From positions 1-56,804 of the forward strand of contig WGAI01000006.1 of assembly GCA_015489175.1 (NCBI GenBank): a stretch of DNA of 56,804 nt. The letters run 5' to 3'. This DNA is from Caldifarciminota bacterium. Lineage in GTDB: Bacteria > Hydrothermota > Hydrothermia > B15-G9. Below the pieces are notes generated by a model. It saw only the letters and a list, made by a program, of their open reading frames with translations, was not told the DNA's origin and made no database searches. This document shows positions 3,715 through 49,326 of the stretch, one piece after another (within the stretch, counting starts at the first letter, position 1; each line of letters opens with the position of its first letter). Position numbers and translations under genes: made by a program.

Positions 3715-3779
3715 GATACGGGAAATTATATTGTTTTTCGGGGCAGGAAGTTGTTTTAATCTCGATAATGTGATGGGAA

Positions 3780-3832
3780 AGGAAAAGCCGCCTCTACCGA
3801 AATAAGTTGAATTTAGGGAGGCGGCTTTTCCT
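3780..3832 (-). terminator. Bidirectional-type terminator ending the phosphate operon
   Basis: A perfect 15-bp inverted repeat (3780-3794 and 3818-3832) places GCCGCCTC/GAGGCGGC inside flanking A-rich and T-rich arms, the classic layout of an intrinsic terminator that works both ways. It begins three bases after the stop of the last gene in the 3836-13993 operon. Confidence 0.8.
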
Positions 3833-3835
3833 GTA

Positions 3836-4423
3836 TCAGTAGGTGAGTCCTTCCAGCCTTTTGAGCGCCTTTATGTAGTTGACGATCTCGTATTTTTCAA
3901 GCCCCAGATCTTTAACAACTTTCACTACAAGGTCAGGATCAGCGTGCTCGACCGCCACAGTCCGTATGTGCTTGCCGTTCGCCTCGACTTCTGCTATCTC
4001 CACGATGGCCTCATCGATCAGATACCCGTGCCTCTCCTTCTTAACATTCACAAGAACAAGATTTTCGTTGGGCTTCACGAGCTCCTCAATGAACTGCTCG
4101 AATGTGTATTCATCCCTCTTGAAATCAGGGAAAGGAAGGTTCCACGCCTTGTAAACTATCGCGAGGCCGTTTATCGGGATGGGAAACCCTTCTTTCAGGA
4201 TAGGCGTCCACTGTTCGAGGCCGAAATCGTTGACCCTCAGCAGTGTTTTGATGTCCATGAGCTCGTCCCTGATCTTGGTGTTGTCGTTGCTGCTCCTTGA
4301 CAGGATGTAAAATTCCTCGCTGGTCCTGATCCTTGGCTCACCATGTTCCCTGATCTTCTTCTCGGCGTCGCCAAACTGATCACCAAATGTCCTCCATTCC
4401 CATCTTGGTATGATTTTCTCCAT
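3836..4423 (-). CDS. CYTH-like domain protein (cytoplasmic)
   Basis: A 195-residue protein without signal peptide. It opens with an acidic-basic strand (RWEWRTF) in the position of the ExExK motif of CYTH / triphosphate tunnel enzymes. It then has alternating strands rich in R, K and E (IKTLLRV, LVNVKKERHGYLID, AIVEIAEVEANG) and a helical end, the usual CYTH order. The canonical ExExK is not exact, so enzymatic activity on triphosphate or polyphosphate is only a possibility. It is the last gene of the operon. The upstream gene ends three bases before this ATG and contains the AGGAGGA ribosome binding site in its final codons. CYTH assignment is by pattern and needs a profile search. Confidence 0.5.
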   Translation of the reverse strand: MEKIIPRWEWRTFGDQFGDAEKKIREHGEPRIRTSEEFYILSRSSNDNTKIRDELMDIKTLLRVNDFGLEQWTPILKEGFPIPINGLAIVYKAWNLPFPDFKRDEYTFEQFIEELVKPNENLVLVNVKKERHGYLIDEAIVEIAEVEANGKHIRTVAVEHADPDLVVKVVKDLGLEKYEIVNYIKALKRLEGLTY

Positions 4424-4426
4424 GAC

Positions 4427-5218
4427 TCATCCTCCTGACTGAATTTTTACGATTTTAAACCTATAAAGTTCCGAAGTCGGCATGTTATTGTCAGTCACAA
4501 TGAAAATCGTGTCTCCCTTGACCGCGATCCCCTCTGCATCCTGAAAATTGAGAGGGGCCTCAATCCCTGTGGGGACGAGATTTTCGTCGAAAGTCACAAT
4601 CATGCCGGACTGATCGCTAACCGCCCACAATTTGAAAGGCAGGCTATCCTCAGCGACGGCCAGTCCCGACATGTCTCCAACTATCGAAATGTTATTCTGA
4701 CCCAAAATGTTACCATCAAACCCCAATTTGAACAACACGATTGGGTTCTTCTCGTTGACGGTGTAGATGATGCTGTCCTGAAAGTCCACCGCGACGCCCT
4801 CAAGCCCGCTGTTTTCGCTCCCGGTGAAATCGACATGTATCTGCCTGAGCATCCTGCCTAAGAAATCGTATTCGACGATGTTCCTCGCACCTTCTTCCAC
4901 CACCCAGAAACTGTTGCCATCAGGCGATATGCAAATCCCTTCGAGGTCCATATCTTCGTTACCAAGGCAAATTGAGTCCAGAACCATGCCGTCGGTGGTC
5001 ATTCGATACACCATATCCCTGTCTCCGTCCGACACGGTAAGGAGCGTGTTGGTCGTTGAATCGTATGTCAAACCGGAGGCCTCCGGTACCTCTATCCGAT
5101 AGCTATCTATGGGTTCTATTTGGAGGCTGGCGTTTTCTGACGGGTTGTATTCTGGCGTACAGTTGACGGTGTAGAGCAGTCCGAAAGCGGCGGCTGTGAT
5201 AAGGAGCTGTTTTTTCAT
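4427..5218 (-). CDS. SdiA-regulated-type beta-propeller lipoprotein
   Basis: The 263-residue protein has a signal peptide ending at a cysteine near residue 20, though the lipobox (TVNC) is imperfect. The rest repeats a propeller-blade pattern: LLTVSDGDRDMVYR, DLEGICISPDG, GLEGVAVDF, MSGLAV and AEGIAVKGDTIFIV. The recurring D/G-L-E-G-I-A motif is typical of the SdiA-regulated (SdiA-reg) family, which shares its fold with phytase-like propellers. Substrate is unknown. Its position inside a phosphate operon makes organic-phosphate binding or cleavage attractive, but this is inference. A GC-rich hairpin lies between it and the upstream lipoprotein gene. Confidence 0.65.
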   Translation of the reverse strand: MKKQLLITAAAFGLLYTVNCTPEYNPSENASLQIEPIDSYRIEVPEASGLTYDSTTNTLLTVSDGDRDMVYRMTTDGMVLDSICLGNEDMDLEGICISPDGNSFWVVEEGARNIVEYDFLGRMLRQIHVDFTGSENSGLEGVAVDFQDSIIYTVNEKNPIVLFKLGFDGNILGQNNISIVGDMSGLAVAEDSLPFKLWAVSDQSGMIVTFDENLVPTGIEAPLNFQDAEGIAVKGDTIFIVTDNNMPTSELYRFKIVKIQSGG

Positions 5219-5233
5219 TGGCCGAATCCTGAG

Positions 5234-5258
5234 CGGGCGGCGCCTTCGGCGCCGCCCG
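5234..5258 (-). other. Intercistronic GC-rich hairpin
   Basis: A perfect 11-bp inverted repeat (CGGGCGGCGCC, three-base loop) sits in the 50-bp gap between the lamin-tail and propeller lipoprotein genes. No T-run follows on either strand, so it is more likely an mRNA-stabilising or processing element than a terminator. It may tune downstream expression. Confidence 0.7.
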
Positions 5259-5268
5259 AAACGGTTCC

Positions 5269-5802
5269 TTACTCCTGATTGGGCTGACCCGGGGTTGGGT
5301 GAGTCATGGTTATCCAGTTGTCGGATCCATCAGGATAGCGGCCGTAAGAGACATCGGTCTGCTGCTCGCCGTAGGTTATGGAATCGACGACGGTGGTGTC
5401 AGGGGCGAAGAGCCCAACCTGCTCGCCGCCAGCTGAGAGTTTAAAGTTCGTATGAGGTGCCTGACCGAGCGTGTCGTTATCGTCCGCCCAGATCAGCAAG
5501 AAACCATGTGCGGGAACTGTCACGCCCTCGGGAACCTGCCACTTTGTGGGCTCGCCGAGGTCGTCAGTGAGGTAGTAGCCGGAGATGTCGATGGCGCTAT
5601 CACCATCGTTGTAGAGCTCGATCCAGTCAGCAAAATCGTTGAAGTCAGGATCAGCGATCGTGGTGTCGTTGGACGCCATGAACTCGTTGATGTAGATGTG
5701 TCCCTCCTGAGCTGGTGGCGGCGGGCCCTCCTCTTTCTGGCATGCTGTCATGGCCACTATACCTACGATGAGAAGCACTGCTAACACGCTTAGCTTTTTC
5801 AT
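5269..5802 (-). CDS. Lamin tail domain (LTD) lipoprotein
   Basis: A 177-residue protein with a clear lipoprotein signal (lipobox MTAC, Cys21). The mature part shows the bacterial LTD pattern: INEFMASN near the start, then DWIELYNDGDSAIDISGYYLTDD, W-x-VPEGVTVPAHGFLLIWAD and FKLSAGGEQVGLF, ending near the canonical SYGRYPDGSDNW. LTD folds are immunoglobulin-like and usually adhesive or accessory modules of secreted hydrolases, here standing alone. AGGAGGAGG precedes the ATG. It sits 24 bases after the phosphate-type porin gene and is probably exposed in the periplasm or on the outer membrane. Exact role unknown. Confidence 0.8.
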   Translation of the reverse strand: MKKLSVLAVLLIVGIVAMTACQKEEGPPPPAQEGHIYINEFMASNDTTIADPDFNDFADWIELYNDGDSAIDISGYYLTDDLGEPTKWQVPEGVTVPAHGFLLIWADDNDTLGQAPHTNFKLSAGGEQVGLFAPDTTVVDSITYGEQQTDVSYGRYPDGSDNWITMTHPTPGQPNQE

Positions 5803-5826
5803 GGCTTACCTCCTCCTTTTTGTTTT

Positions 5827-6936
5827 TTAGCCAATCATTAACTGTGCGATAATTCTAAGCTCATCCGGCTTCCATGGCTCACTCTCGCCAGGATAAGGAA
5901 GCCGTTTGAAATAGTTCGCCATTATCTTGAAATCGTGGCCGAACGGATGATAGTTTAGACCAAAGGTTATGGTCCTTTCCACAGCGTTTGAGAACTTGCC
6001 AAGTGAATGTGTCTGTGGATCAAACTGATCATACTGAATTACAGGCTCAAGTTTCAGGGAAGGGATGTAGTAGCTTGCTGTCACAAGGAAGCCGCCGGCA
6101 TAGAAGTAAGAAGTGTCCAACTGAATGCGGAATATGGATGTGAATGGCTGAAGTTTTGCATAGTTGGTCTCAAATTTGAAGTAAAAACCACGATACTTGA
6201 ATGTAAAGTCCGCGCCGAACAGCACTTTTCTGCCTCTGATCGTGCGTGGGTAATCCTCTTCAGTTGGGCCTGCATCATCAGAATAGGTTGCATTGACGCC
6301 GACAAGGAACCTCGGGCTGGGTGTCATCTCGATGTCGCCCTCTGTCTTGGGGATCTTTCCGAGAGGAGCGGCCTCTGCTCTGACGGCAAACAGCGGTTTT
6401 CCCAATTTATCGTCGTTCTTCGTGTTATCTCCGTTGCCTGAGAAAACGCCGGTATAGAGCACATACTTCCTGTCGGATGTCCTTAGTCTGAGCATAACGC
6501 CCCTGTCGCGGCCGGGGACGAACTCGTCGGCAACAGCCGGGCGCGTCGTGAGGACGAGTTTTGATGTAGATGTCATCCTCGTGCGGCTGAAAGGCACTTT
6601 GAACTGGCCTGCTCTCAGCGTGAATGTCGATGTCGGTTTGTATTCCAGATAGAGGTCTTTTGCTATCTCGCCATCGTCGTAACCCCTCGCTTCGATCTGA
6701 AGCTCATACTCGAACACATCGAACATCTCGCCTTCCAGTTTTATCCTCGCCTGATGCACATAAAACCTGTTTTTCTTGTGGTTATCGGCATCTGACGGAT
6801 AGAACCTGTAAGCAAAGGCCGATCTGATGCGACCTGATATCTGGAGTTCACCGTCCGGATACTCCAGAATGAACTGCGCCTTCAAAATGGAAGGCACCAA
6901 CATCAACACAGCTAACACTAGTGCAATTCTTCTCAT
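5827..6936 (-). CDS. Phosphate-selective porin O/P family outer-membrane protein
   Basis: The 369-residue barrel protein has a cleavable signal peptide (about 1-20). Its N-terminal half shows the Porin_O_P pattern: ISGRIRSAFAYRF, RIKLEGEMFDVFEYELQIEARG, DLYLEYKPTSTFTLRAGQFKVPFSR, then a V-P-G-R-D-R-G-V element before the next strands. OprO and OprP take up polyphosphate/pyrophosphate and phosphate through the outer membrane. The gene lies 14 bases downstream of the Pit permease with an AAGGAGG site, which strongly supports phosphate or phosphoanion uptake. Anion selectivity depends on pore arginines and lysines that cannot be placed without a model. Confidence 0.8.
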   Translation of the reverse strand: MRRIALVLAVLMLVPSILKAQFILEYPDGELQISGRIRSAFAYRFYPSDADNHKKNRFYVHQARIKLEGEMFDVFEYELQIEARGYDDGEIAKDLYLEYKPTSTFTLRAGQFKVPFSRTRMTSTSKLVLTTRPAVADEFVPGRDRGVMLRLRTSDRKYVLYTGVFSGNGDNTKNDDKLGKPLFAVRAEAAPLGKIPKTEGDIEMTPSPRFLVGVNATYSDDAGPTEEDYPRTIRGRKVLFGADFTFKYRGFYFKFETNYAKLQPFTSIFRIQLDTSYFYAGGFLVTASYYIPSLKLEPVIQYDQFDPQTHSLGKFSNAVERTITFGLNYHPFGHDFKIMANYFKRLPYPGESEPWKPDELRIIAQLMIG

Positions 6937-6950
6937 GATAGACCCTCCTT

Positions 6951-8480
6951 TTATTTGCCAACATTTGAAGGCTCAACACCTTCTTTTTCAAGCTGCCTTA
7001 TTCTCGACAGCTTAAAGACAAAGAACAACCTCTCGTATTTTGCCTTAAGATCCTTGTTGTAAAGGCGATTTTCCCGCGTTTTGGGCTTATAACGCCATTC
7101 CGGCGACATCTTCGAAAGGGTATCGACAAGCTCCCATCGATATTCAAATATGCTGCCATGCAGTGCCTTAACCGCTGCTATCTGAGCAGGCGTGAACCAG
7201 TTTGGATCGAGCGATTTCTGTGCGATCGTCGAATCGATCAGGAGACTATCGACCTCAGAATAACTAATAACTTTGTCAACATCTTTGCCCGAAAGCTTTG
7301 TATCATGCTCCAAAGCCGATCTAAATTTCCATGCGTTGTAGTAGATTTTGCCCTCAAATTTCAGGATGGATGTGTCTTTGAGGCCGAGTTCCTGCAGTTT
7401 AGCGACTACTTTGTGCGAGATTTTGTGCGGTATGGGCTCGTAAACCTGTTGCTGGAACACATTCTGCATGAAGAAGAGCGTGAAGAAGCTAATGACAGCC
7501 GCCGTAACAGGTGTGATTATCCAGCCCCAGAAGATTCTCGACAGCACTCTGAAATTTATGGCTTTTCCGCCGCCGCGAGCGAACGCAATGCCAACGACGC
7601 CGCCGACAACGGCCTGAGAACTTGACACTGGCACAAGCGGTATGGTTGGCAGGCCCAGCCGTATGAGCAATCTCTCAAGGCTCTGCGATGCGAAGATGAA
7701 CAGCACCAGCGATTCCGCAAGCACCACGATGAGAGCCGCCACAGGCGAGAGTTTGAAGATGTCGCTGCCGACCGTTTTCATCACGCGGTAGGAGTATGTG
7801 TAGATGCCCGTTGCGATTGCAAGTCCGCCGATGAAGAACAACACCTGAGTCGCTGTGAGCCTGAATACACCCATGAAATTGATGTCGGTGAATGGGTTGG
7901 ATGCCACAAATACACCCATCACATTTGCTATGTTATTGGCACCAAGACTGTAAGCACCAAATGCGCCAATGAGAATCAGGCCAAGCCTCGTGTAGAGGTC
8001 GATGCGGAGCAGGTGAATTTTGGCTCCTTTGAGATAGACCTTTACGAGTTTGAAAAGAAGATATGAGAACAGGCCCGCGAGGATGGGGTTTAGCACCCAT
8101 GTCGTGACTATCTTCCTCAGTGCATTGGTGTCCACAAGCGTGCCAGCGAAGAAGTCCCATCCGACTATCGCGCCCACGATTGCCTGAGTTGTCGATACCG
8201 GCAGACCCAATTTTGTCATCCACGCAACTGTTATAGCGGCGGCGAGTGCTACTGTGAAAGAGCCTCCGAGTGCGTTTACTGAACCCAATTTTCCGAGCGT
8301 GTGTGCTGCCCCAGCACCGCTTATCGTCGCCCCGATTATCACAAACACGGACGCCACCAGAGCCGCCACCTTGAACTTGACCATCTTCGTCGCAACGGCA
8401 GTGCCGAACACATTGGCTGCGTCATTGGCTCCCAGCGACCATCCCAGAAATAGACCGCTTATCAGATAGAACCAAAACAT
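6951..8480 (-). CDS. pit: Inorganic phosphate transporter, Pit (PHO4) family
   Basis: A 509-residue polytopic membrane protein with two inverted PHO4 signatures: GANDAANVFGTAV near residue 18 and GANNIANVMGVFV near 182. The repeat motifs PVSTTQAIVGAIVG and PVSSSQAVVGGVVG follow in each half. Pit proteins import phosphate as a metal-phosphate complex with protons or sodium. After the last membrane span a soluble tail of about 150 residues is attached, which ordinary PitA lacks. The ATG is one base after the stop of the DUF47 gene, indicating translational coupling, the usual pit arrangement. Confidence 0.92.
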   Translation of the reverse strand: MFWFYLISGLFLGWSLGANDAANVFGTAVATKMVKFKVAALVASVFVIIGATISGAGAAHTLGKLGSVNALGGSFTVALAAAITVAWMTKLGLPVSTTQAIVGAIVGWDFFAGTLVDTNALRKIVTTWVLNPILAGLFSYLLFKLVKVYLKGAKIHLLRIDLYTRLGLILIGAFGAYSLGANNIANVMGVFVASNPFTDINFMGVFRLTATQVLFFIGGLAIATGIYTYSYRVMKTVGSDIFKLSPVAALIVVLAESLVLFIFASQSLERLLIRLGLPTIPLVPVSSSQAVVGGVVGIAFARGGGKAINFRVLSRIFWGWIITPVTAAVISFFTLFFMQNVFQQQVYEPIPHKISHKVVAKLQELGLKDTSILKFEGKIYYNAWKFRSALEHDTKLSGKDVDKVISYSEVDSLLIDSTIAQKSLDPNWFTPAQIAAVKALHGSIFEYRWELVDTLSKMSPEWRYKPKTRENRLYNKDLKAKYERLFFVFKLSRIRQLEKEGVEPSNVGK

Positions 8481-8481
8481 A

Positions 8482-9129
8482 TTACACCAGTCGTTTTATG
8501 GTGTAGATGGATACCCTATCGCCGATGTCCTCCGCCTTGTCCGCTATCGCCTGAATGTAGCTGATGAATGTGCGCAGGTGCATCCTATGGCTGAGCCGCA
8601 GATCTTCCCTGCCAAACAGGTATCTCTTGATCTTCTCCCCGATCTTATCCGATTCTTTCTCGAAGAACATCACCTTTGTGATGTGGTCGCGCACGGAAAC
8701 GATGTCCTTGAAGTATGCCCTCACAGCAGCTACCATCTCCTCGACACCCTGCATGCTCACATCGACGAGGTTCATGAACTGGTCTTTGATCTCATCCAAA
8801 AATTCGGGTCTCTCGATGGAGAACTCGACGATCGTGTCAGCGACTATGTTGAGGACATCGTCCGAATTTTCCAGCAGAGCAAGCACATCGCCCCTCGCCT
8901 CAGGTATGAGCATCTCGGCATAGAGCATGTTCTCGATCTCGCGCCTGAGCTTGTCGGCCTGTCCCTCAAGCTGATCCACATGTTTTGCCCTCTTCTCGAA
9001 CTCCTCGAAATCATCGGCAAGGTAGTATTTCAATCCCTGCTTGAATTCGAGAGCGGCCTCCAGAATAGTGTCAAGGAAATTGTCTATCTTGGCCTCTAAT
9101 TCTTTAGTCTTTTTGAACACCGTGAACAT
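8482..9129 (-). CDS. DUF47/PhoU-like phosphate transport regulator
   Basis: A 215-residue all-helical protein of the DUF47 (TIGR00153, PhoU-like) family, usually encoded beside Pit permeases and thought to modulate them. Acidic helices such as ESDKIGEKIKR and DKAEDIGDRV carry the E/DxxxD metal-binding pattern seen in PhoU-like bundles. The start is placed at 9129 because AGGAGG lies five bases upstream there. The longer open frame to 9255 begins inside the preceding gene and adds a basic stretch unlike the family. The gene overlaps the end of the secreted CYTH-like gene by 26 bases. Confidence 0.88.
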   Translation of the reverse strand: MFTVFKKTKELEAKIDNFLDTILEAALEFKQGLKYYLADDFEEFEKRAKHVDQLEGQADKLRREIENMLYAEMLIPEARGDVLALLENSDDVLNIVADTIVEFSIERPEFLDEIKDQFMNLVDVSMQGVEEMVAAVRAYFKDIVSVRDHITKVMFFEKESDKIGEKIKRYLFGREDLRLSHRMHLRTFISYIQAIADKAEDIGDRVSIYTIKRLV

Positions 9130-10066
9130 TAGAGCCTCCTTTTTTGATCCTTGCCTTCTTGACAGTCGGTTTATGCGAATAGACATATCCGGTTTTGGTG
9201 CCTTCCGGATAATACCAATCTTTGAGAGCGAACTGGAGCGCTTTGAAGAACTCACTTGCCCGCTCTATCCCCCTGTCTATCATCTCGTTGTGTCTCATAA
9301 ATCTGAAGTCGTATGAAAACTCGGCAACGAAAGGCCTGGATGTGTCACCGAATTCATACCATGTGGTGATGTCAACCATGCTGTTGATGCCGCCGCCGAA
9401 GACGAACATGCCCGGCGATACCTTGCGCTCGTCAACAATGAAGCCGTTGACGATTTCCAACTTTTTGTCCAGAGGGATGCCGAGCTTGCCGAGCACGGGA
9501 AAGATCTTTGCATAGTCCCCGATGGTGTTACCTGGCGAGAAATCGAGCTTTTTCACCTTGACGCTCTTGGAATAGATGAACCTCATCGTGCCAAGCGAAT
9601 CCTTTATCGGAGTTATGTCAGCCTCAAATTTGGCCTTGGTCTTGTATCCTTTAAGCGCCACAGTGATGTCGGCCTGAGCGGATTTCTGCAGGTCGGTGCT
9701 GCGGTATTTCAGCGTCAGGTTATACTCCTTGCGCGGCTTGCTGCCGTTGTATTTGACCCTCACACGCAGGACATACCCGTGTTTCCTGAGGTCATGGTCA
9801 GGTGTATCGAGGAAATATACCTTGCGTCTGTGCTCTCTGAACGGCTGTCTGCCCTCTCTCACCTCGATGCCAAGGCTATCCGCCAGGGATTTGGCGATCT
9901 CCCACACCTTTTTGTAAGCTTCCTGCCTGTTCACGAAGAGCTCCGGTTTCAGCAAAATCTTGTATTCATGAGAGTTGAGTTTGGTCAATTTTGCCGCCTG
10001 TAACTGCGGCAACCCCATCATCAAAGCAAAGATGGCCAGATAAAACATCTTTTTAACGGTTCTCAT
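9104..10066 (-). CDS. Secreted CYTH-like domain protein
   Basis: A 320-residue protein with a signal peptide (about 1-24, LQA-A). The mature part opens with HEYKILLKPE, resembling the ExxK strand of CYTH/triphosphate tunnel enzymes. It continues with KVYFLDTPDHDLRKHGYVLRVRVK, NLTLKYRS, AKFEADI and a late acidic strand, FVAEFSYDF. This is the order of charged inward-facing strands in CYTH tunnels, where K/R bind phosphates and E/D bind metal. CYTH enzymes are normally cytosolic, so an exported member in a phosphate operon is unusual. It may hydrolyse polyphosphate or nucleoside triphosphates in the periplasm, or only bind them. AGGAGG precedes the ATG. Confidence 0.6.
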   Translation of the reverse strand: MRTVKKMFYLAIFALMMGLPQLQAAKLTKLNSHEYKILLKPELFVNRQEAYKKVWEIAKSLADSLGIEVREGRQPFREHRRKVYFLDTPDHDLRKHGYVLRVRVKYNGSKPRKEYNLTLKYRSTDLQKSAQADITVALKGYKTKAKFEADITPIKDSLGTMRFIYSKSVKVKKLDFSPGNTIGDYAKIFPVLGKLGIPLDKKLEIVNGFIVDERKVSPGMFVFGGGINSMVDITTWYEFGDTSRPFVAEFSYDFRFMRHNEMIDRGIERASEFFKALQFALKDWYYPEGTKTGYVYSHKPTVKKARIKKGGSNVHGVQKD

Positions 10067-10082
10067 GGCTTTATCCTCCTGA

Positions 10083-11567
10083 CTATTTACTTTCCTTTTT
10101 GGCTTTAGCGCTCCTGATGATCGGAGCGGCGAATGATAAGAGTGCGAGCAGCAACATGATAAGGCTGCCCGGCCTCGTAAAGAAGATGGTCCAGTTGCCG
10201 ACCAACAGCGCCCTGCGGAAATTCGTTTCCGCCATCGAGCCCAGAATGAGCGCCAGTATCACGGGCGCAGTCGGATAGCCAAACCGTTTAAGCAGCCATC
10301 CAAGTATTCCAAATCCAAGGCAGCTCCACACATCGAACAACGAATTGCTCACCGCATAACTTCCTATGAATGCGATGGCTATGACGACCGGGTATAGGAG
10401 CTCTTTGGGCAATTTGATGATTTTCAGCCACAGTTTGTTACCTGCAAATCCGATGAAGAACATGAAGAAGTATGCCATGACAAGCGCTGCGAACAATCCG
10501 TTAATGATGTGCGCCTTTTTCACGAACAGGAGCGGTCCAGGGTTAAGTCCATGCAGCATCAGCGCCCCGATCAGGACGGCTGTAGCGGCACTTCCAGGCA
10601 CGCCGAGCGTGAGCAGGGGCACGAGTGCGCCGCCAACTGAACCGCTGGCCGCCGCCGAACCTGCAGCAACTCCCTCCACTGCACCCCTGCCAAATTGCTC
10701 AGGATGCTTGCTCAGCCTTTTCTCCTGACTGTATGCGATGAATGCGGCGATTGTGGCGCCTGCTCCCGGCACGACGCCAATGATTGTGCCGATAATCGAG
10801 GCCCTTGTTATGGTTCCAAGCAGCTTTTTGAGCTCTTTGATGCCCGGCAGCTTGCTCGCTATCTTCCCGATGTCAACCTTCTCGGAGATGCCCTTCTCGA
10901 TCAGGAAGAAGATCTCGCCGAGCGCAAACAGGCCGATCAGGGCCGGTATGAAACCGAGCCCATCCGACAGCTCGGGAACCCCGAATGTGAACCGTTGATA
11001 GCCTGTGAAGGGATCCATACCGATCGTATTCAGGAACAGCCCAATGAAAGTCGCAACCAGAGATTTGACCCAGTTGCCCGTAGAAAGCGATGAAATGATC
11101 GTGAGCCCAAAAACCGCAAGCGCGAAGTATTCCGCCGGCCCAAAGGCGAGAGCCACCTTTGCAAGTGGCAGTGAGAAGAGTATAAGCACCAGGGTGCCAA
11201 GCATACCGCCGAATGTGGCGGCCACGAGCGAGACGAAAAGCGCTTTGTTGGCCTCTCCTCGCATCGTCAGAGGGAACCCGTCGAACGATGCAACAATAGC
11301 CGAAGGCGTTCCCGGAGTGTTTATCGCAATCGCAGTTATAGTTCCGCCGTAGTTGGCAGATGCATAGACCGAAACGAGCAGGATAAGCGCCGTCAACGGA
11401 TCCAGACCATAGCTGAACGGCACGAGGAGAGCCACACCCATCGCAGGCGACAATCCGGGGATGACTCCAACAAAGATGCCAATTATCACGCCTATCAGAA
11501 TAACTGCAAGCGGCTTAAAACCAAGGATTACGGCAAAACCGTTGATCAGATGCGATAGAATTCCCAT
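10083..11567 (-). CDS. tctA: Tripartite tricarboxylate transporter, TctA permease
   Basis: A 494-residue membrane protein with about 11-12 hydrophobic spans. It has the TctA signatures GVIPGLSPAMGVALLVPFSYGLDP near residue 36 and GTIIGVVPGAGATIAAFIAYSQEKR near 260, the two inverted glycine/proline-rich re-entrant motifs of the family. It is the large channel subunit of a secondary tripartite transporter driven by ion gradients, classically importing citrate or other tricarboxylates. The gene starts 13 bases after the fused TctC-TctB gene and ends 16 bases before the secreted CYTH-like gene. Substrate is not determined. Confidence 0.9.
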   Translation of the reverse strand: MGILSHLINGFAVILGFKPLAVILIGVIIGIFVGVIPGLSPAMGVALLVPFSYGLDPLTALILLVSVYASANYGGTITAIAINTPGTPSAIVASFDGFPLTMRGEANKALFVSLVAATFGGMLGTLVLILFSLPLAKVALAFGPAEYFALAVFGLTIISSLSTGNWVKSLVATFIGLFLNTIGMDPFTGYQRFTFGVPELSDGLGFIPALIGLFALGEIFFLIEKGISEKVDIGKIASKLPGIKELKKLLGTITRASIIGTIIGVVPGAGATIAAFIAYSQEKRLSKHPEQFGRGAVEGVAAGSAAASGSVGGALVPLLTLGVPGSAATAVLIGALMLHGLNPGPLLFVKKAHIINGLFAALVMAYFFMFFIGFAGNKLWLKIIKLPKELLYPVVIAIAFIGSYAVSNSLFDVWSCLGFGILGWLLKRFGYPTAPVILALILGSMAETNFRRALLVGNWTIFFTRPGSLIMLLLALLSFAAPIIRSAKAKKESK

Positions 11568-11579
11568 GTCTCTGCTCCT

Positions 11580-13076
11580 TTAAAAGAGATAACCCACCAT
11601 AAGGGGCACTCCGAGGACACGATAAAACACGATGTAGGCGAAAAGCGCGAATCCGATGGCGTTCAGTGCAGCGATCCAGAGGTTTCGATAGCCAAGTAGC
11701 AGCGAGGCGCCGAAAATGAAAATCGTCGTTGTCAAAAAGTATCCGATTATCTGGCCCAACACAATGTAGGTTATCACAGAGGCAAACATCAGCATGACAT
11801 TTTTTCGTCCGGGCAATTTCGATGGCGGAGTTTTATCCCTCAACTCCTGAACGAGCACCCACAGGCCAAAGATGAACAGGCCACCGAGCCACAGTCGTGG
11901 CGCAATCGCCGGGCCTACAGCACCTGAAAGCTTCCCGCGCGGGAACGAATATGTCACAAGGAACAGAAAGATGGAGAGCACCACGAGGATGTATGGGAAG
12001 ACAGTGCGCCCATATCGGAGCTGTGGAAATCGAGGATTCATGGCCAGATAGATGAGGATAGCAATGACTGAGAGCACCACGAAAATTATCAGGTTCCTCC
12101 TGCCGGCAGCTTTATCTGTGGTTATGATGCCTGCCTTCTGCAGGTATTTTCTGGCCTCCTCCTTCTCGCGGTGAACCATGTTCACAAACTCGTCATGCGG
12201 AATGAAGTCGGGCACAGCTCCATTGTTCTCGACGAACTTAATCCACTCGGAATCCTTTGCCACAGCTTCAAATACCCCCTCGATGTATTTCGTTATCGGT
12301 TCAGGTGTGCCCTTTTTCAAAGCGAACCCTCGCCAGATAATTTCACGAGGGAGGTTGTAGCCGTATTCGAGGAAAGTCGGTGCGTCAGGGAACTGTGGGA
12401 GCCGATGTGGAGCCGCCACTGCCGCAACCATCAGATCAGGTTTACCGGATATATCACCGGGATTGCCGACATAAACTTTCCCGTGCTTGCCCAACAGTGC
12501 CATCATCGCGTCGCTGCCGCTCTCGTAAGGCACCCATACGGCATCGATGCCGAGCACATCCCAGCTCTTCATCGCCATTATGTGATCGACGCCGCCGACG
12601 AGCGGGCCGACCCATATCTGATGCCCGTGCTTCTTTTTGGCGTCTTCAACGATTTCCGGCAGCGTTCGCACATCGGATTTCCTGTTCGTTATCAGGGCTT
12701 CATAGTCGATCATCATCGAGCCTATGAGATAAAAACTGTCCAGAGACACCTTTTCGTGCGTTATCAATGTGGTTGACACAAAGGATTTTGTGAGGGCAAG
12801 TACCGTGTATCCATCTGCCGGTTTCGACAGCACATAGCGCATTGCGACAAGGCCGGAGGCGCCCGGTCGATTCTCGATCACCATATCAATACCAAATTTC
12901 CGCTTCGCTATACGCGAAACCAGTCGGGACGCTATGTCTATGCCGCTACCGGGTTTGCTGTGAACCACGATGGTTATCGGTCTCGATGGGAATCCTTCAG
13001 GCGGTGTTGGCTGGGCAAATACAGGCAGGGAATACGCCAAAAATAAAAACAACAAGCCCGTGCGTAGCCCGTTCAT
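11580..13076 (-). CDS. TctC-TctB fusion: periplasmic binding domain joined to small membrane subunit
   Basis: About 498 residues. A signal peptide is followed by a TctC/Bug-type binding domain (about 25-330: FPSRPITIVV, GSGIDIASRL, IENRPGASG, the family pattern at its ligand pocket). After a transmembrane segment near 340-355 come about four more spans typical of TctB. TctC and TctB are normally separate proteins, and the fusion would tether the binding protein to the transporter. The frame opens with GTG at 13082, overlapping the previous stop, but ATG at 13076 has GGAAAG at proper spacing and is preferred. It lies in the same operon as tctA and the pit genes. Confidence 0.82.
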   Translation of the reverse strand: MNGLRTGLLFLFLAYSLPVFAQPTPPEGFPSRPITIVVHSKPGSGIDIASRLVSRIAKRKFGIDMVIENRPGASGLVAMRYVLSKPADGYTVLALTKSFVSTTLITHEKVSLDSFYLIGSMMIDYEALITNRKSDVRTLPEIVEDAKKKHGHQIWVGPLVGGVDHIMAMKSWDVLGIDAVWVPYESGSDAMMALLGKHGKVYVGNPGDISGKPDLMVAAVAAPHRLPQFPDAPTFLEYGYNLPREIIWRGFALKKGTPEPITKYIEGVFEAVAKDSEWIKFVENNGAVPDFIPHDEFVNMVHREKEEARKYLQKAGIITTDKAAGRRNLIIFVVLSVIAILIYLAMNPRFPQLRYGRTVFPYILVVLSIFLFLVTYSFPRGKLSGAVGPAIAPRLWLGGLFIFGLWVLVQELRDKTPPSKLPGRKNVMLMFASVITYIVLGQIIGYFLTTTIFIFGASLLLGYRNLWIAALNAIGFALFAYIVFYRVLGVPLMVGYLF

Positions 13077-13078
13077 GC

Positions 13079-13993
13079 TCACTTTCCAAATCTGTCAAAC
13101 ATCAACCCATGTCTTACTCCCCTGACGCTGACTGTGAGTTTCGGCAATCCGAGTTTTTTCATTATGGTGTAAACGATGCCTGTGCCGGCAATTATGACAT
13201 CTGCACGCTTTGGCTGTAACCCCGGTATCTTTTTGCGCTCTTCAACGGTCATCGAGCTGAATTTCCACAACATATCCTCGACTTCCTGAAGCGTAAGTTC
13301 GGTGCCGTCCACGATTTCAGGGTCATACTTTTCCATTTTATGCTTGACTGCCGCCAGATTGGTGATCGTTCCGCCTATGCCGAGAAGCGCATCGGGTTGG
13401 AAATCGACCTCCAGGTCGCCAAGTTCGCTCTCGATTGCGGATAGCATAGCGTTGATTTCCCCTTTTTCAGGCGGGTCATGCTTAAGGTAGTCCTCTGTGA
13501 AACGGATTGCGCCGATGTTCAAACTGAATTTCTTTTCAATCTCGTCCCCCTTCCCGAATATGAACTCCGTGCTGCCACCCCCTACATCGATTACAACCAC
13601 CCTGTCTGCAGGAGTTTTGAGCCCGGATTTGACTGCGAGGAAGGAAAGACGTGCCTCCTCCTCACCGGGAATGACCTCAACATCAACATCGCACATATCT
13701 TTCACGAGCTTAATGAACTCGTTGCTGTTTGAGGCGGTTCTCAACGCCATTGTGCCGACGGCGAGTATCTTCTCGGCGCCGAGATCCCGCGCAAGTGCTG
13801 CGAAATCACAAACGGCTTTCGCAGTGCGCTCCATTGCCTCCTTGCTCAGGCGGCCGGTCGCTTTCAGGCCCTCTCCAAGCCTTGTGATCTCCGCCTTCTC
13901 AGCAAGAGTTTTCCAGTTACCCTTTTCATCCTTTTCAGCCACAAACACCAGCACAGAATTGGAACCTATGTCAATTGTGGCATATACAGGCAT
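13079..13993 (-). CDS. Ppx/GppA family phosphatase (exopolyphosphatase-like)
   Basis: A 304-residue member of the ASKHA fold. It begins with YATIDIGSNSVLV, continues with an IPGEEEARLSF element near residue 117, then the phosphate-2 loop VIDVGGGSTEF near 145 and GIGGTITNLAA near 210. These are the Ppx/GppA nucleotide and polyphosphate-binding motifs. Length matches the short form lacking the C-terminal helical domain. Such enzymes hydrolyse polyphosphate or pppGpp. As first gene of the phosphate operon, it is preceded by AGGAGG and a good promoter. Which substrate applies cannot be told from sequence. Confidence 0.88.
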   Translation of the reverse strand: MPVYATIDIGSNSVLVFVAEKDEKGNWKTLAEKAEITRLGEGLKATGRLSKEAMERTAKAVCDFAALARDLGAEKILAVGTMALRTASNSNEFIKLVKDMCDVDVEVIPGEEEARLSFLAVKSGLKTPADRVVVIDVGGGSTEFIFGKGDEIEKKFSLNIGAIRFTEDYLKHDPPEKGEINAMLSAIESELGDLEVDFQPDALLGIGGTITNLAAVKHKMEKYDPEIVDGTELTLQEVEDMLWKFSSMTVEERKKIPGLQPKRADVIIAGTGIVYTIMKKLGLPKLTVSVRGVRHGLMFDRFGK

Positions 13994-14301
13994 GCTTCAC
14001 CTCCTGCTTTTGAGCCGTAGTTTATGTGATACTTCCCCAAGATGTCAACATACCGTTATCACACATTTAAATTTGTTAGTGTAACGGGCACGATCTATGG
14101 GAGTCGTAATTTGTAATACTCCGCAGTTGTTTTTAGTATCCATTAAATTGAGAACTTGCTTGATAGGTAAAGGATTGAGGGGATGCCCTGTCAGAAATAT
14201 CAACTCTGGGATTAAAGTGAAAGGCCCGGAAGCCTCAAAAACTAACACTTAGCCCACATAAAAATTGCGAGTTGGCAATCAGTGTTGAGGACAGACAAAG
14301 C
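13994..14301. other. Intergenic region upstream of the phosphate operon
   Basis: About 308 bases between the minus-strand AMIN gene and ppx/gppA. It holds the ppx promoter (14021-14048) and a weak AGGC/GCCT hairpin near 14231-14245 that might help end the AMIN-gene transcript. A 67-codon minus-strand frame (14045-14248) has no visible start signal or recognisable features and is not called. No RNA gene was recognised. Confidence 0.5.
14021..14048 (-). promoter_or_regulatory. Putative sigma-70 promoter of the ppx-tct-pit operon
   Basis: On the minus strand, a perfect TTGACA (complement of 14043-14048) and CATAAA (complement of 14021-14026) are spaced 16 bases apart. The -10 box lies 27 bases before the ATG at 13993, giving a short leader with AGGAGG. 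It is the only good promoter seen ahead of the ten-gene run. No obvious Pho-box repeat was recognised. Confidence 0.55.
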
Positions 14302-26241: not shown

Positions 26242-26943
26242 TTACTTCTGGGTCGCTGGCGGGAATACAGCCACAACCCTTGCAGGGAATCCAGATGCCT
26301 GTGTGAACTTGGGCGCTCCGATGAAGATTATGCCACCCTTCTCCGGAAGCTTATCGACATTAGCCATGACCTCGACCTGATACCTGTTGGCATCGCCGAG
26401 GAGGTAATACTCGACCTCGAAGGTCGTGGAGATGCCATGATCGGTGCCAAGCGTCTCATGGCCAAATCCGACGATGTCACGGTTCTCAACAAGCCATTTA
26501 GCTGCCTCAAGTCCAAGGCCGGGGAAGTGCATGTTGCCTTCCTCTGTGCCAGCAATGAAGGCCTTTTTATCATTCCATTTCTTGCCCCAGCCGCTTCTCA
26601 TTATGACAAGCGCGCCCTTCGGAATTTCGCCGTATTTCTTCTCCCATGCCTGGATGTCAGCAACTGTCATCTCGTAATCGGGATTTGCTTTGACCGAATC
26701 CGTGCAATCTATCACGACAAACGGAACCACGAATTTTTCCATCGGTATGTCAGCGAGCTGATACTTGCCACCAAAGTGTGCAGGAGCACCGACATGAGTG
26801 CCGATATGCTCACCGACATTGTTCCACACATTCATGAAGAAGCCGTCTTTCTCAACCGTGAAGAGGTTAACCCTTTCAGGCGGTGTGAAGCCCGGCCAGA
26901 CAGGCATGGAATCGGTCACGAGATGGGTGCAATCGACCCACTC
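26242..26943 (-). repeat. Second copy of intragenic cyclase-domain duplication
   Basis: Residues about 295-527 of the lipoprotein repeat residues about 40-272, shifted by 255 residues. DNA identity is high in long tracts; for example, stretches near 26400-26430 and 27170-27200 are nearly the same. Confidence 0.9.
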
Positions 26944-27825
26944 CCAATTCTTGAGGTAGTTCTCATAGATGTCCCAGAGGTTCCATCCTTTGAACTCGGT
27001 ATCATCCACGCCTTCACGCGGGTCAGGGAGTATAGCAAATGCCCTTGCAGGGAACCCTGAGGCATCGTGGAACTTAGGCGGGAGCACCACAAAAAGGGCG
27101 CCTTTTTCCGGCAGAGGATCGGTGTTATCCACGACTTCGACCTGATACCTGTTGGCATCGCCGAGCAGGTAATACTCGACCTCGAAGGTCGTGGAAATGC
27201 CATGGTCCGTGCCAAGCGTCTCATGGGCAAATCCGACGATCTTGCGGTTCTCAACGAGCCACTTGGCAGCCTCAAGACCGAGGCCGGGGAAGTGCATGTT
27301 GCCTTCCTCTGTGCCAGCAATGAACTCTTTCGGATTGTACCATTTCTTGTGCCATCCGGTTCTCATAAGGACAACTGCGCCCTCAGGAATCTGGCCGTTC
27401 TTATCCTCCCATTTCTTGATGTCATCGACCGTCATCTCATAATCCGGATTGGCGTTGACCGAGTCCGTGCAATCGATAACCACGAGAGGTGCCACAAGCT
27501 CTTTCACCGGGATGTCCTGAAGCTGCCTCTTACCGCCAAAATGAGCCGGTGCTCCGATGTGAGTGCCGACATGCTCCCCTACGCTGTCCCAGACATTCAT
27601 GAAGAAGCCGTCTTTCTCAACGGTATAGAGATTCCTGCGGATCGGTGGTTTGAAGCCGGGCCAGACTGGCATGGAGTCTGTAACTTCGTGAGAGAGATCT
27701 ACAACTTTGCGCGTGGTGATGTATTTGATGATCTGCTCAGGTGTAGGTTGTGGTGGTTGCTTTTTACAGCCACCGAGTGCGAGCACTACTCCGAGTGCTA
27801 CCACCACTATGCCCATCTTTTTCAT
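26242..27825 (-). CDS. Lipoprotein with two tandem cyclase (kynurenine formamidase-like) domains
   Basis: A 527-residue protein with a lipobox LGGC (Cys20) and two copies of the cyclase-family domain (about 40-272 and 295-527). Each copy has D-x-(S/T)-H-x-V-T-D-S-MPVWPGF and the motif H-x-G-T-H-x-G-APAHFGG (H85, H89, H95; second set near 340-350). The family's metal motif is H-x-G-T-H-x-D-x-P-x-H, so the aspartate ligand is glycine in both copies. Later motifs FPGLGLEAAKWLVEN, HETLGTDHGISTTFEVEYYLLG and SGFPAR occur twice. It may hydrolyse an amide or lactone in the periplasm with an altered metal site, or only bind ligand. A terminator follows and a perfect promoter precedes. Confidence 0.85.
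   Translation of the reverse strand: MKKMGIVVVALGVVLALGGCKKQPPQPTPEQIIKYITTRKVVDLSHEVTDSMPVWPGFKPPIRRNLYTVEKDGFFMNVWDSVGEHVGTHIGAPAHFGGKRQLQDIPVKELVAPLVVIDCTDSVNANPDYEMTVDDIKKWEDKNGQIPEGAVVLMRTGWHKKWYNPKEFIAGTEEGNMHFPGLGLEAAKWLVENRKIVGFAHETLGTDHGISTTFEVEYYLLGDANRYQVEVVDNTDPLPEKGALFVVLPPKFHDASGFPARAFAILPDPREGVDDTEFKGWNLWDIYENYLKNWEWVDCTHLVTDSMPVWPGFTPPERVNLFTVEKDGFFMNVWNNVGEHIGTHVGAPAHFGGKYQLADIPMEKFVVPFVVIDCTDSVKANPDYEMTVADIQAWEKKYGEIPKGALVIMRSGWGKKWNDKKAFIAGTEEGNMHFPGLGLEAAKWLVENRDIVGFGHETLGTDHGISTTFEVEYYLLGDANRYQVEVMANVDKLPEKGGIIFIGAPKFTQASGFPARVVAVFPPATQK
27010..27708 (-). repeat. First copy of intragenic cyclase-domain duplication
   Basis: This encodes residues about 40-272 of the tandem-cyclase lipoprotein. 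It is the partner of 26242-26943 and is joined to it by a linker of about 22 residues rich in W and D. Confidence 0.9.
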
Positions 27826-43934: not shown

Positions 43935-43957
43935 GGCAATGTAAAATGGAGGCACGA

Positions 43958-44572
43958 ATGATGAAGACCGTGTTTGTGCATCCCGAGAAGTGTATCGGGT
44001 GCAGGCATTGCGAAATTGCCTGTGCCGTAGAGCACTCACGGTCCAAAGATATCTTTGGACTCGTGACAGAATCCCCTCCACCCATGCCACGAATACATGT
44101 AGAAGTTGGCGTTGACCTTCTAACCTTCCCAAACAGATGTCGTCACTGCGATCCTGCCCCGTGCATGCAGGTTTGTCCAACAGGTGCGCTTTACAGGGAC
44201 AATAACACATGGTCAGTGCTTGTTGATTATGAAAAATGTATTGCCTGCGCGATGTGTGCGATGGTCTGTCCGTTTGACATCATATCGTTCCACAGGGTCT
44301 GGAATGTGACATTTGATCATGAGGTAAATGCCAAATGCGATCACTGCATAGAGAGGCAATTGCGGGGCGAAATACCGGCATGTGTTGAGGCCTGCAAGAC
44401 CGGGGCTCTCGAATTTGGCGATGCAAACGACATAATCCGCAATTCGCGCAAAGACTTCACCCTCAGGACGACAATGGCCCTGAAGGGTGAGTCCGCTCCT
44501 GAACTTCCTGAAAGCATATCACAATTCAGAGAAGTAATGAAAAAAGTAGCAAAACTTGGCCCTTTGGGCTGA
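43958..44572 (+). CDS. cooF: CooF-type 4Fe-4S electron-transfer ferredoxin
   Basis: About 204 residues with four Fe-S cluster motifs: CIGCRHCEIACAVEHS at the N-terminus, CRHCDPAPCMQVCPTGAL, CIACAMCAMVCPFDII, and CDHC...CVEACKTGAL. This arrangement is typical of CooF, which takes electrons from CO dehydrogenase. The start is at 43958 (or 43961), since GGAGG lies five to eight bases upstream. The longer frame from 43946 has the ribosome site inside it. The gene is 12 bases ahead of cooS. Confidence 0.92.
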   Translation: MMKTVFVHPEKCIGCRHCEIACAVEHSRSKDIFGLVTESPPPMPRIHVEVGVDLLTFPNRCRHCDPAPCMQVCPTGALYRDNNTWSVLVDYEKCIACAMCAMVCPFDIISFHRVWNVTFDHEVNAKCDHCIERQLRGEIPACVEACKTGALEFGDANDIIRNSRKDFTLRTTMALKGESAPELPESISQFREVMKKVAKLGPLG

Positions 44573-44584
44573 GGAGGCATTGCC

Positions 44585-46483
44585 ATGGATATCAAGCCTA
44601 AACTCGTAAAGGAATTGATAGAGGAGAGGACAATCGACGAAGCTGCCAGAGAAGTTATGGCGAAAGCCATCGAAGATGGCATTGAAACAGTGTGGGACAG
44701 GCTTGAGGCGCAGCAGCCTCAATGCGGTTTTGGGCAGCTCGGTTTATGTTGTAACAGGTGTGCGATGGGGCCGTGCAGGATCTCTCCTTTTGGTGAGACT
44801 GGCCCGACAAGGGGTGTTTGTGGCGCTGACGCTAATGTTATAGCGGCAAGAAACTTGTTGGATGACCTCCTTGTTGGCGCAGCGGCCCATTCCGACCACG
44901 GCAGGGAAGTGGTGGAAGTGCTGCTCAAGACTGCCGAGGGCAAAGCGCAGGGTTATGAGATCATCGATGAAGAGAAACTTAAGGCAGTTGCGAGGGAATA
45001 CGAGATTGAGGTCGAGGGCAGGAGCAGCAAGGAGATCGCAAAAGACCTTGCTCTCGCAATGCTCGAAGAGTTTGGCACCATAAAGAACAAAATCCAGTTT
45101 GCTGAAGTCAGGCCCCCAGAAAAGACCAAAGAGACATGGCGCAAAGCTGGTATCGTGCCGAGAAGCGTTGACCGAGAGATCGTTGAGGCTGCACACAGGG
45201 TCCACATGGGCGTTGATTCCGATTATGTCAACATTCTACTCCACGCCCTGAGGACATCGCTTTCGGACGGATGGGGCGGCTCGATGATGGCAACCGAGAT
45301 CTCGGATGTGCTGTTCGGCACCCCTAAGCCCGTCACATCCTATGTAAACCTCGGCGTCCTCAAAAAGGATATGGTCAACATCGTGCTTCACGGCCACAAT
45401 CCTGTCCTGTCGGAGATGGTGGTCAAGGCTGCTGATGAGCCTGAGCTCATCGAATACGCAAAGAAGATGGGCGCTAAGGGGATTAACCTCGTCGGCATGT
45501 GCTGCACTGGAAACGAAGTTCTCATGAGGCAGGGCATCCCCATTGCAGGTAACATGCTGAACCAGGAGCTTGCCATCGCCACGGGGGCGGTCGAGGTTAT
45601 GCTGATTGACTATCAGTGCATTTTCCCGTCGATAACTAAAACCGCGAGCTGCTACCACACGAAAGTCGTCTCCACATCCGAAAAAGCGAAGTTCCCCGGT
45701 GCAATCCACATGGAATTCCATCCTGAAAACGCATACGACACGGCGAAAGAGATCATCAAACTCGCAATCGAGAACTTCCCCAATAGGGACCCCAATCGCG
45801 TCAAGATACCGAACAAACCTATGAAGATGATGGCCGGCTTCTCTGTCGAAGCCTTGAAAAGCGCGCTTGGCGGTTCGTTCAAACCTTTGATCGACGCAAT
45901 CGTCGAGGGTAAGATACGGGGTGCAGCTGGCGTCGTGGGATGTAACAATCCCAAGATTAAGCAGGATTACGGCCATATAACCCTTGCCAAAGAGTTGATA
46001 AAACGGGACATAATCGTGCTCGAAACCGGTTGCGCCGCTATCGCTTCAGGTAAGGCCGGGCTCCTATTGCCCGAAGCTGCCGAGCTTGCGGGTGAGGGGC
46101 TCAAATCGATCGTAACCGCACTCGGCGTCCCGCCTGTTCTCCACATGGGCTCATGCGTGGACTGCTCAAGGATACTCGTCCTCGCAGCCGAGCTCGCCAA
46201 GACGCTTAATGTCGCAATAAGTGATCTGCCGGTCGCAGGTGCCGCACCTGAATGGTATTCCCAGAAGGCGATATCGATAGGCGCTTACTTCGTCGCATCG
46301 GGCGTGTTCACCGTGCTCGGATTGCCGCTTAAGGTCTATGGAAGCAAGGATGTGCTGAATCTGCTCACAGAAGGCGTTGAGGGTGTCGTTGGAGGTAAGT
46401 TCGCCATAGAGCCCGATCCGATCAGAGCCGCAGAACTCATCTCAGCACACATCGAGAAGAAACGCAAAGCGCTTGGTATTTGA
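44585..46483 (+). CDS. cooS: Anaerobic carbon monoxide dehydrogenase catalytic subunit (Ni-CODH)
   Basis: A 632-residue enzyme that oxidises CO to CO2 at a Ni-Fe-S C-cluster. D- and B-cluster cysteines are at about 47, 55, 56, 59, 64 and 79 (CGFGQLGLCCNRCAMGPC). C-cluster ligands are all present: His in HGHNP near 268, and Cys in GMCCTG (about 305), DYQCIFPS (about 344), GCNNPK (about 452), GCAAIASGKAG (about 481) and GSCVDCS (about 523). The conserved lysine is in WYSQKA near 560. No acetyl-CoA synthase gene is near, so it is the monofunctional type. GAGGAGG precedes the ATG. Confidence 0.96.
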   Translation: MDIKPKLVKELIEERTIDEAAREVMAKAIEDGIETVWDRLEAQQPQCGFGQLGLCCNRCAMGPCRISPFGETGPTRGVCGADANVIAARNLLDDLLVGAAAHSDHGREVVEVLLKTAEGKAQGYEIIDEEKLKAVAREYEIEVEGRSSKEIAKDLALAMLEEFGTIKNKIQFAEVRPPEKTKETWRKAGIVPRSVDREIVEAAHRVHMGVDSDYVNILLHALRTSLSDGWGGSMMATEISDVLFGTPKPVTSYVNLGVLKKDMVNIVLHGHNPVLSEMVVKAADEPELIEYAKKMGAKGINLVGMCCTGNEVLMRQGIPIAGNMLNQELAIATGAVEVMLIDYQCIFPSITKTASCYHTKVVSTSEKAKFPGAIHMEFHPENAYDTAKEIIKLAIENFPNRDPNRVKIPNKPMKMMAGFSVEALKSALGGSFKPLIDAIVEGKIRGAAGVVGCNNPKIKQDYGHITLAKELIKRDIIVLETGCAAIASGKAGLLLPEAAELAGEGLKSIVTALGVPPVLHMGSCVDCSRILVLAAELAKTLNVAISDLPVAGAAPEWYSQKAISIGAYFVASGVFTVLGLPLKVYGSKDVLNLLTEGVEGVVGGKFAIEPDPIRAAELISAHIEKKRKALGI

Positions 46484-46494
46484 TACAAACCAAC

Positions 46495-46530
46495 AAGGGG
46501 GCAGGCAGCGATTGACTGACCTGTCCCCTT
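46495..46530 (+). other. Intercistronic hairpin between cooS and cooC
   Basis: AAGGGGGCAGG (46495-46505) pairs over 11 positions, with one G-T pair, with CCTGTCCCCTT (46520-46530). No T-run follows. It ends 13 bases before the cooC ATG, a position where it could govern cooC translation or protect the cooS message. Confidence 0.65.
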
Positions 46531-46543
46531 GAACATTTCAGCC

Positions 46544-47419: not shown

Positions 47420-47420
47420 A

Positions 47421-48671: not shown

Positions 48672-48705
48672 CTAAAAACTCAGGGACGACAAAAGGGAGG
48701 CAGTT

Positions 48706-49326
48706 ATGCATATTCCCGATGGGTTTCTATCTGTTCCGGTAGCTACATCTACCTACGCCATTTCAGGGGCATGGGTAGGTTACTCGATAAAGAAGGTGCA
48801 GGAAAAGGTCGGTGAGAAGGCGGTGCCTGCCATGGGGGTTCTTGCCGCCTTCGTTTTTGCAGCGCAGATGATAAATTTCCCGGTGGCAGGTGGGACGAGC
48901 GGGCATCTCGTCGGCGGGACGCTCCTCGCCATCCTGTTTGGGCCGATGGTCGCGAGTGTGATAATGACAGCTATACTCATTGCTCAGGCGTTGCTGTTCG
49001 CCGATGGAGGGATAACAGCGCTCGGTGCAAATATCCTGAACATGGGCATAGTGGCCCCGTTAACCGGCTATTTCGTTTACAAATTCATCAAAAAATGGCA
49101 CTATGGTGCAGCCGTGTTCATTGCATCATGGCTTTCCATAGTGGTATCCGCCATGTTCTGTGCCGTGGAACTCGCCCTTTCAGGGACGATCCCACTTAGA
49201 ATTGCACTTCCAGCAATGACATCGATACATGCAATCATCGGGATTGGGGAAGGGTTGATTACCTATTTCGTTGTAGTTGCTATCAAAAAGATGACACCTT
49301 CTATCGTGGAGGAGGCAGGGATATGA
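48706..49326 (+). CDS. ECF nickel/cobalt transporter substrate-specific subunit (CbiM/NikM)
   Basis: A 206-residue membrane protein beginning MHIPDGFLS. The N-terminal Met-His amino group and His2 form the metal site of CbiM/NikM. Further signatures are [20 protein letters not shown] and [11 protein letters not shown], with about six to seven membrane spans. Since the operon builds the Ni enzyme CODH, nickel is the likely cargo, although cobalt cannot be excluded by sequence alone. GGGAGG precedes the ATG. The stop overlaps the next ATG (ATGA). Confidence 0.92.

Follow-up and report, generated by a model that had tools for sequence, protein, structure and literature searches.

The genes that let prokaryotes grow on external polyphosphate are poorly understood. 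Haloferax grows on exogenous polyphosphate, and the enzyme there is still unidentified (PMC13318637). A ten-gene cluster in the genome of an uncultured heat-vent bacterium (Caldifarciminota, WOR-3/Hydrothermota) brings together an OprO/P porin, an exported protein with a predicted TTM fold, a Pit carrier and a Ppx phosphatase in a genome without a detectable PPK, a combination that would make the polyphosphate-growth question testable. The issue is whether these genes constitute a phosphate-acquisition unit. The genome is a 95.6% complete MAG of 2.06 Mb in 77 contigs, and the window is the whole 56,804-nucleotide stretch analyzed, contig C6. The cluster is real and the phosphate reading of it is partly supported; most parts belong to known families, and one protein family is undescribed.

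The ten ORFs occupy positions 3836 to 13993 of the minus strand, and the gaps from gene 1 to gene 10 are −4, 12, 16, −26, 1, 14, 24, 50, and 3 bp. Most of the ten genes have a good Shine-Dalgarno sequence. The start of the DUF47 gene is at 9129 rather than at the GTG called mechanically (9255), and the gene ends 1 bp before pit. The promoter candidate, TTGACA-N18-TAAACT, is the top site of a consensus scan (10/12); the scan returned 16 sites in the window versus 11.4 ± 3.7 expected, a number that alone is not above chance. The TTGACA/TAAACT hexamers are common to three species, with N18 in the window and the sister species G001 and N17 in the third species, G002. The hexamers and ribosome-binding site are kept in G001 whereas the DNA upstream is far less alike, and in G002 the hexamers recur although the gene upstream is a different one. 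The 3′-terminal hairpin (3781-3831, followed by TTT) is a normal terminator with a folding energy of −30 kcal/mol, and the sister species retains its stem. The layout proposed by the sequence-only reading, ten genes on one strand spaced by ≤50 bp behind one good promoter and before one strong terminator, is borne out. Its family names hold for genes 1 to 9 and not for gene 10, which has no CYTH HMM match.

Table 1. Features of the ten-gene cluster, listed in the direction of transcription.
Feature	Position	Strand	Evidence
Promoter TTGACA-N18-TAAACT	14019..14048	-	Consensus scan; hexamers conserved in G001 and G002
Gene 1, Ppx/GppA phosphatase of the short, single-module type (304 aa)	13079..13993	-	PF02541 3e-69
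Gene 2, TctC-TctB fusion, 500 aa	11580..13082	-	PF03401 residues 53-311, 1.5e-21; PF07331 residues 363-494, 5e-16
Gene 3, TctA permease	10083..11567	-	PF01970 2e-151
Gene 4 (cythE), exported CYTH/TTM-fold protein (predicted), SxEYK...LRxRxK...TLK...AEFS	9104..10066	-	PF01928 23.1 bits; Foldseek; signature across phyla
Gene 5, DUF47/PhoU_div (PitR-type regulator)	8482..9129	-	PF01865 8e-28
Gene 6, divergent PiT transporter, GANDAAN/GANNIAN, PVSTTQ/PVSSSQ, ~170-aa C-terminal extension	6951..8480	-	PF01384 2e-63; matches TmPiT 6l85
Gene 7, OprO/P-family porin	5827..6936	-	PF07396 2e-27
Gene 8, lamin-tail-domain (LTD) lipoprotein	5269..5802	-	PF00932 2e-20; lipobox MTAC
Hairpin GGGCGGCGCC-GAA-GGCGCCGCCC between genes 8 and 9	5235..5257	-	Identical in three species
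Gene 9, SdiA-regulated (YjiK-type) beta-propeller, probable lipoprotein	4427..5218	-	PF06977 2e-20
Gene 10 (cyth2), cytosolic, undescribed family, predicted CYTH/TTM fold, motif PRWEWRTFG	3836..4423	-	Foldseek; Cupriavidus homologue fused to Ppx
Intrinsic terminator	3776..3831	-	Perfect 14-bp stem, then TTT

The single transcript claimed earlier fits the spacing and the promoter, but a 3′-end-type hairpin lies inside the cluster, a second strong hairpin that the sequence-only reading missed. This hairpin has a GC stem and a GAA loop without a U-run, and it is repeated within the order. It is unchanged in three species while its flanks differ. Related hairpins were found in 8/13 genomes searched, stem variants carry compensating changes (e.g., GGGCGGGGCC-GAA-GGCCCCGCCC), and a reversed control pattern was absent from all 13 genomes searched. 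Twenty-nine of 30 copies in relatives lie ≤50 bp from a gene 3′ end, about half of them between convergent genes (the G002 copy was placed via a separate gene call). Because the copies cluster at gene 3′ ends, the hairpin is probably a lineage-specific 3′-end element or local terminator, and partial termination after gene 8 may therefore reduce the transcription of genes 9 and 10 or uncouple it in part from that of the other genes.

The phosphate reading starts from genes 1, 5 and 6. The Ppx-GppA domain covers the whole of gene 1, which matches Aquifex aeolicus Ppx (2j4r) at 1e-54 and scores 268 bits against TIGR03706, below its strict 307 cutoff. Gene 1 shares its single-module length and whole-length similarity with the Aquifex-type short Ppx/GppA proteins (2j4r, 1t6d) and retains both their glycine-rich loop and the conserved Glu in the EEEAR/EQEGR segment. 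It differs from them in that a Ppx of its type forms a fusion with a gene-10-type domain in Cupriavidus and in that the window genome has no PPK match. DUF47 is the PitR-type partner of PiT carriers, and its gene is reported to adjoin pit in nearly all genomes with both (PMC13170248). As in pitA-pitR units, the DUF47 gene of the window directly precedes a PiT-family carrier. Unlike in those units, the window Pit is divergent and longer and has an Asp-to-Asn change in its second signature, and the pair stands behind a Ppx gene in a set that has grown to ten genes.

The Pit carrier opens the phosphate reading to a rival. Gene 6 has GANDAAN in its first half and GANNIAN in its second, so the signature Asp is not present in both halves. 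The second-half Asn occurs in every class member read. Both signature Asp residues are reported to be essential for phosphate transport and to be replaced in the sulfate permease CysP (PMC5840216). The best NCBIfam match of gene 6 is CysP, at 83.6 bits and far below the 400 cutoff. Because a signature Asp is replaced by Asn, family membership does not settle the Pit substrate, and the earlier view of this Pit as an established phosphate carrier is weakened. The cluster could instead serve another anion: the divergent Pit would be a CysP-type carrier of a sulfate-like anion, or a carrier of another oxyanion, TctCBA would co-import anions, and Ppx would be a pppGpp/nucleotide phosphatase reporting nutrient state. 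GANNIAN, the variability of the first-half Asp across the class, the loss of the same residues in CysP, the CysP match itself, a canonical Pit elsewhere in the genome and the lack of PPK1/PPK2 matches all fit an other-anion operon. The first-half Asp is kept in the genus, however, the CysP score is low, and the Ppx, DUF47 and OprO/P-family porin partners fit phosphate better, and we judge an operon for another anion unlikely.

The canonical Pit-DUF47 pair of the same genome lies on contig C67 (L081 6051-7994) and has intact GANDxAN and STTH motifs; its Pit reads GANDVAN, PVSTTH and PISTTH. Searches for PstC and NptA gave no match in the window genome, and the Pit carriers are therefore its likely phosphate route. 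The DUF47 and Ppx partners, with the absent PstC/NptA matches, favor phosphate as the putative substrate of the divergent Pit. The idea that the divergent Pit has to carry phosphate, drawn from genomes that seemed to lack any other carrier, was rejected, as the genomes concerned (G004 and G006) have NptA-type genes.

The sequence-only reading also named two CYTH-like proteins and staked that naming on HMM placement in the CYTH clan. Gene 4 has a predicted signal peptide and matches the Pfam CYTH model at 7e-5 and 23.1 bits, just under the 23.2 cutoff. The best Foldseek matches of its structural model (pLDDT 66.5) are TTM enzymes (4e-8). Residues E34, K36, R101, R103, K120, E148, E249, and S251 are invariant across homologues from plasmids of Rhizobium and Acinetobacter. 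The first Glu of ExExK is Ser or Ala in all rows of the family alignment, and ExS stands for ExE throughout. Gene 10 matches no Pfam or NCBIfam family, and the CYTH model is unmatched in its window, Cupriavidus and Citrobacter members. Its top Foldseek matches are nearly all TTM proteins (2een, 6e-4, prob 1.00), obtained with a low-confidence model (mean pLDDT 55.8), and RxExR, KxR, DxK, and KxR positions are kept in WOR-3, Cupriavidus and Citrobacter. HMM placement is thus split, with gene 4 at the cutoff and gene 10 unmatched; by predicted fold both proteins are CYTH/TTM-like, as proposed. Sequence searches of the PDB with either gene returned nothing useful, and viral contigs scanned for the gene 10 family gave no match. 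Profile-profile comparison of genes 4 and 10 detected no similarity, and recent paralogy of the two was set aside because the profiles show no link.

Genes 4 and 10 share their predicted fold with CYTH/TTM proteins such as SaTTM, AtTTM3, YgiF, and ThTPase, together with individual conserved Glu/Lys positions and an arginine motif, RxR in gene 4 and KxR in gene 10. They depart from these proteins in lacking Glu at the first position of ExExK and at the last position of ExE, in the export of gene 4 and in the lack of a Pfam model for gene 10. ExExK and ExE are the CYTH/TTM catalytic motifs (PMC8233210). Because neither protein has them in full, canonical two-metal catalysis is doubtful, and both may instead bind their ligand or use one-metal chemistry. 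The two proteins with this predicted fold, one of them with a Ppx-fused homologue in another bacterium, point to an undescribed polyphosphate-handling unit.

A functional lead for gene 10 comes from a plasmid of a distant bacterium. A 497-residue ORF on plasmid pMTS1 of Cupriavidus sp. P-10 (L086 8001-9494) begins with a gene 10 homologue of ~195 residues (42% identity) and continues as a short Ppx that matches gene 1 along its entire length at 47% identity. The gene directly upstream encodes a CYTH protein related to gene 4 (hhalign 94.6%, 7e-8), so the counterparts of genes 1, 4, and 10 come together once more in Cupriavidus, here as two adjacent genes. The fusion is strong evidence, though a single unannotated and unreplicated record, and it is the first functional lead for a family uncovered by Pfam. 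The fusion locus has no annotated gene in the collection. On a Citrobacter freundii plasmid, a gene 10 relative (~32%) is flanked by a classical CYTH gene on one side and a gene for an SLC13-type anion transporter on the other. The row at L087 7445-11730 consists of the CYTH gene, the gene 10 relative, the SLC13-type permease and a gene without an assigned function, and a TctA gene lies ~2 kb beyond it on the opposite strand. On the most specific reading, gene 10 would represent a new TTM-like family whose members partner short Ppx enzymes or feed them substrate. Together, gene 10, the exported CYTH protein and the divergent Pit would form a scavenging system for external short-chain polyphosphate in bacteria that, having no PPK match, produce no polyphosphate themselves; we regard this as speculative and quite unlikely.

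The Tct genes encode all three subunit domains of a tripartite tricarboxylate transporter together, in the order C, B, A. Unlike in TctCBA systems, a single polypeptide carries TctC and TctB, linked through an additional TM helix, an unusual tethered design within this transporter class. Gene 2 consists of a signal peptide, a solute-binding domain whose PDB matches are Bug/TctC proteins, a linker TM helix and four TctB TM helices, with the five TM segments at 330-348, 360-378, 393-411, 429-447, and 468-486. A rare TctA-TctB fusion is the only one known to a review of these transporters (PMC5812351). Gene 3 is the sole TctA in the genome; an apparent TctA match in G002 (contig C356) was rejected as a short unrelated membrane protein. 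The earlier suggestion that Tct could import citrate-like metal chelates for Pit is not supported by any evidence. Among the envelope genes, gene 7 gave no alignable sequence match to solved porins in the PDB, and gene 9 also matches PF13449 Phytase-like (3e-13) and Escherichia coli YjiK (3qqz, 3e-6).

The distribution of the cluster suggests how it was assembled. The complete ten-gene set is present in the window genome (G000) and the sister species G001, 93 to 99% identical. In G002 one contig carries Ppx-tctCB, and a second, which ends in the exported CYTH gene, carries DUF47-Pit-porin-LTD-SdiA-gene 10; this species very probably has the whole set as two contig pieces. Beyond the genus, only partial sets occur within the phylum, never all ten. 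Touching Ppx-DUF47-Pit genes are found in other WOR-3 families (G129 and G130 in one, G076 in another), and the DUF47-Pit pair is widespread across the class and phylum. The sister genus (G003) has exported CYTH-DUF47-Pit together, Ppx at another site, and no more than decayed remnants of tctA and gene 10 elsewhere in the genome. A genome-collection scan with the exported CYTH protein gave two matches only, both already-known relatives (a candidate division WOR-3 bacterium and a Candidatus Hydrothermota MAG), and the spread of the module is known within WOR-3 and plasmid records. The neighborhood conservation expected by the earlier reading thus holds for parts across the phylum and for the whole set in the sister species, with the full set seen in the genus only. 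This pattern, the full set in one genus and parts elsewhere, suggests that an old phosphate core was extended recently. Most simply, an ancestral Ppx-DUF47-Pit core took up tct and the CYTH gene by insertion and also gained the envelope genes and gene 10.

The same distribution could reflect loose co-transcription, in which an old Ppx-DUF47-Pit unit gained tct, porin, lipoprotein and CYTH-like genes that share no pathway and only growth- or envelope-related expression. Restriction of the full set to one genus, the internal 3′-end hairpin and the reduced, scattered complement of G003 agree with such an assembly. Gene order and promoter, on the other hand, are common to three species despite ≤38% divergence in some proteins, and genes 1, 4, and 10 reunite in Cupriavidus as a fusion plus neighbor; we judge loose co-transcription rather improbable. 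The contiguity of Ppx-DUF47-Pit in other WOR-3 families, the PitR-type partnership of DUF47 with Pit and the predicted CYTH/TTM folds uphold the phosphate axis of the sequence-only reading. Our preferred explanation, about evenly balanced between right and wrong, is an operon for phosphate acquisition that was extended at the level of the genus from an older Ppx-DUF47-Pit core.

The source of any polyphosphate bears on this explanation. PPK1 was found in none of 60 relatives and PPK2 in none of 26, the window genome included, and control genomes were positive. Polyphosphate storage by the usual kinases is thus unlikely, and the expected substrates of Ppx and the CYTH-like proteins are imported polyphosphate, pppGpp-type nucleotides or polymer made by another enzyme. 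The absent PPK1/PPK2 matches mildly favor a possible uptake chain for exogenous polyphosphate. They also count against a phosphate operon, as no known internal polyphosphate source remains; so do the Asn in the second Pit signature, the second, canonical Pit-DUF47 pair, the incomplete ExExK/ExE motifs of genes 4 and 10 and the internal hairpin that may part genes 9 and 10.

The analysis shows which genes are present, the promoter they share, how the set is conserved, the fold assignments and the fusion to Ppx; every transport and enzymatic step of the extended phosphate-acquisition operon is inferred. Phosphate and short polyphosphate would pass the outer membrane through the OprO/P porin, and the exported CYTH-fold protein, perhaps with the propeller and LTD lipoproteins, would bind or trim polyphosphate in the periplasm. 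The Pit-type carrier would import orthophosphate under regulation by DUF47 (PitR). In the cytosol, the short Ppx with the gene 10 protein would remove phosphate from polyphosphate or pppGpp-type nucleotides. TctCB-TctA, its binding protein tethered to a membrane subunit, would be a later insertion that probably imports an organic, perhaps phosphorylated, anion. Neither this gene set nor the gene-10/Ppx fusion was found described in the literature, and a genome-level paper on the phylum leaves phosphate transport and polyphosphate unmentioned (PMC12542636).

Other genes in the window were assigned by reading. Positions 43946-51033 encode an anaerobic CO dehydrogenase (CooS) and CooF- and CooC-like proteins, followed by a CbiMQO-type nickel/cobalt importer, and 26242-27825 encodes two tandem cyclase/formamidase-like domains behind a lipoprotein-type start. 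Two paralogous long-chain acyl-CoA synthetase-like genes (311-2017 and 51186-52916) lie at opposite ends of the window.
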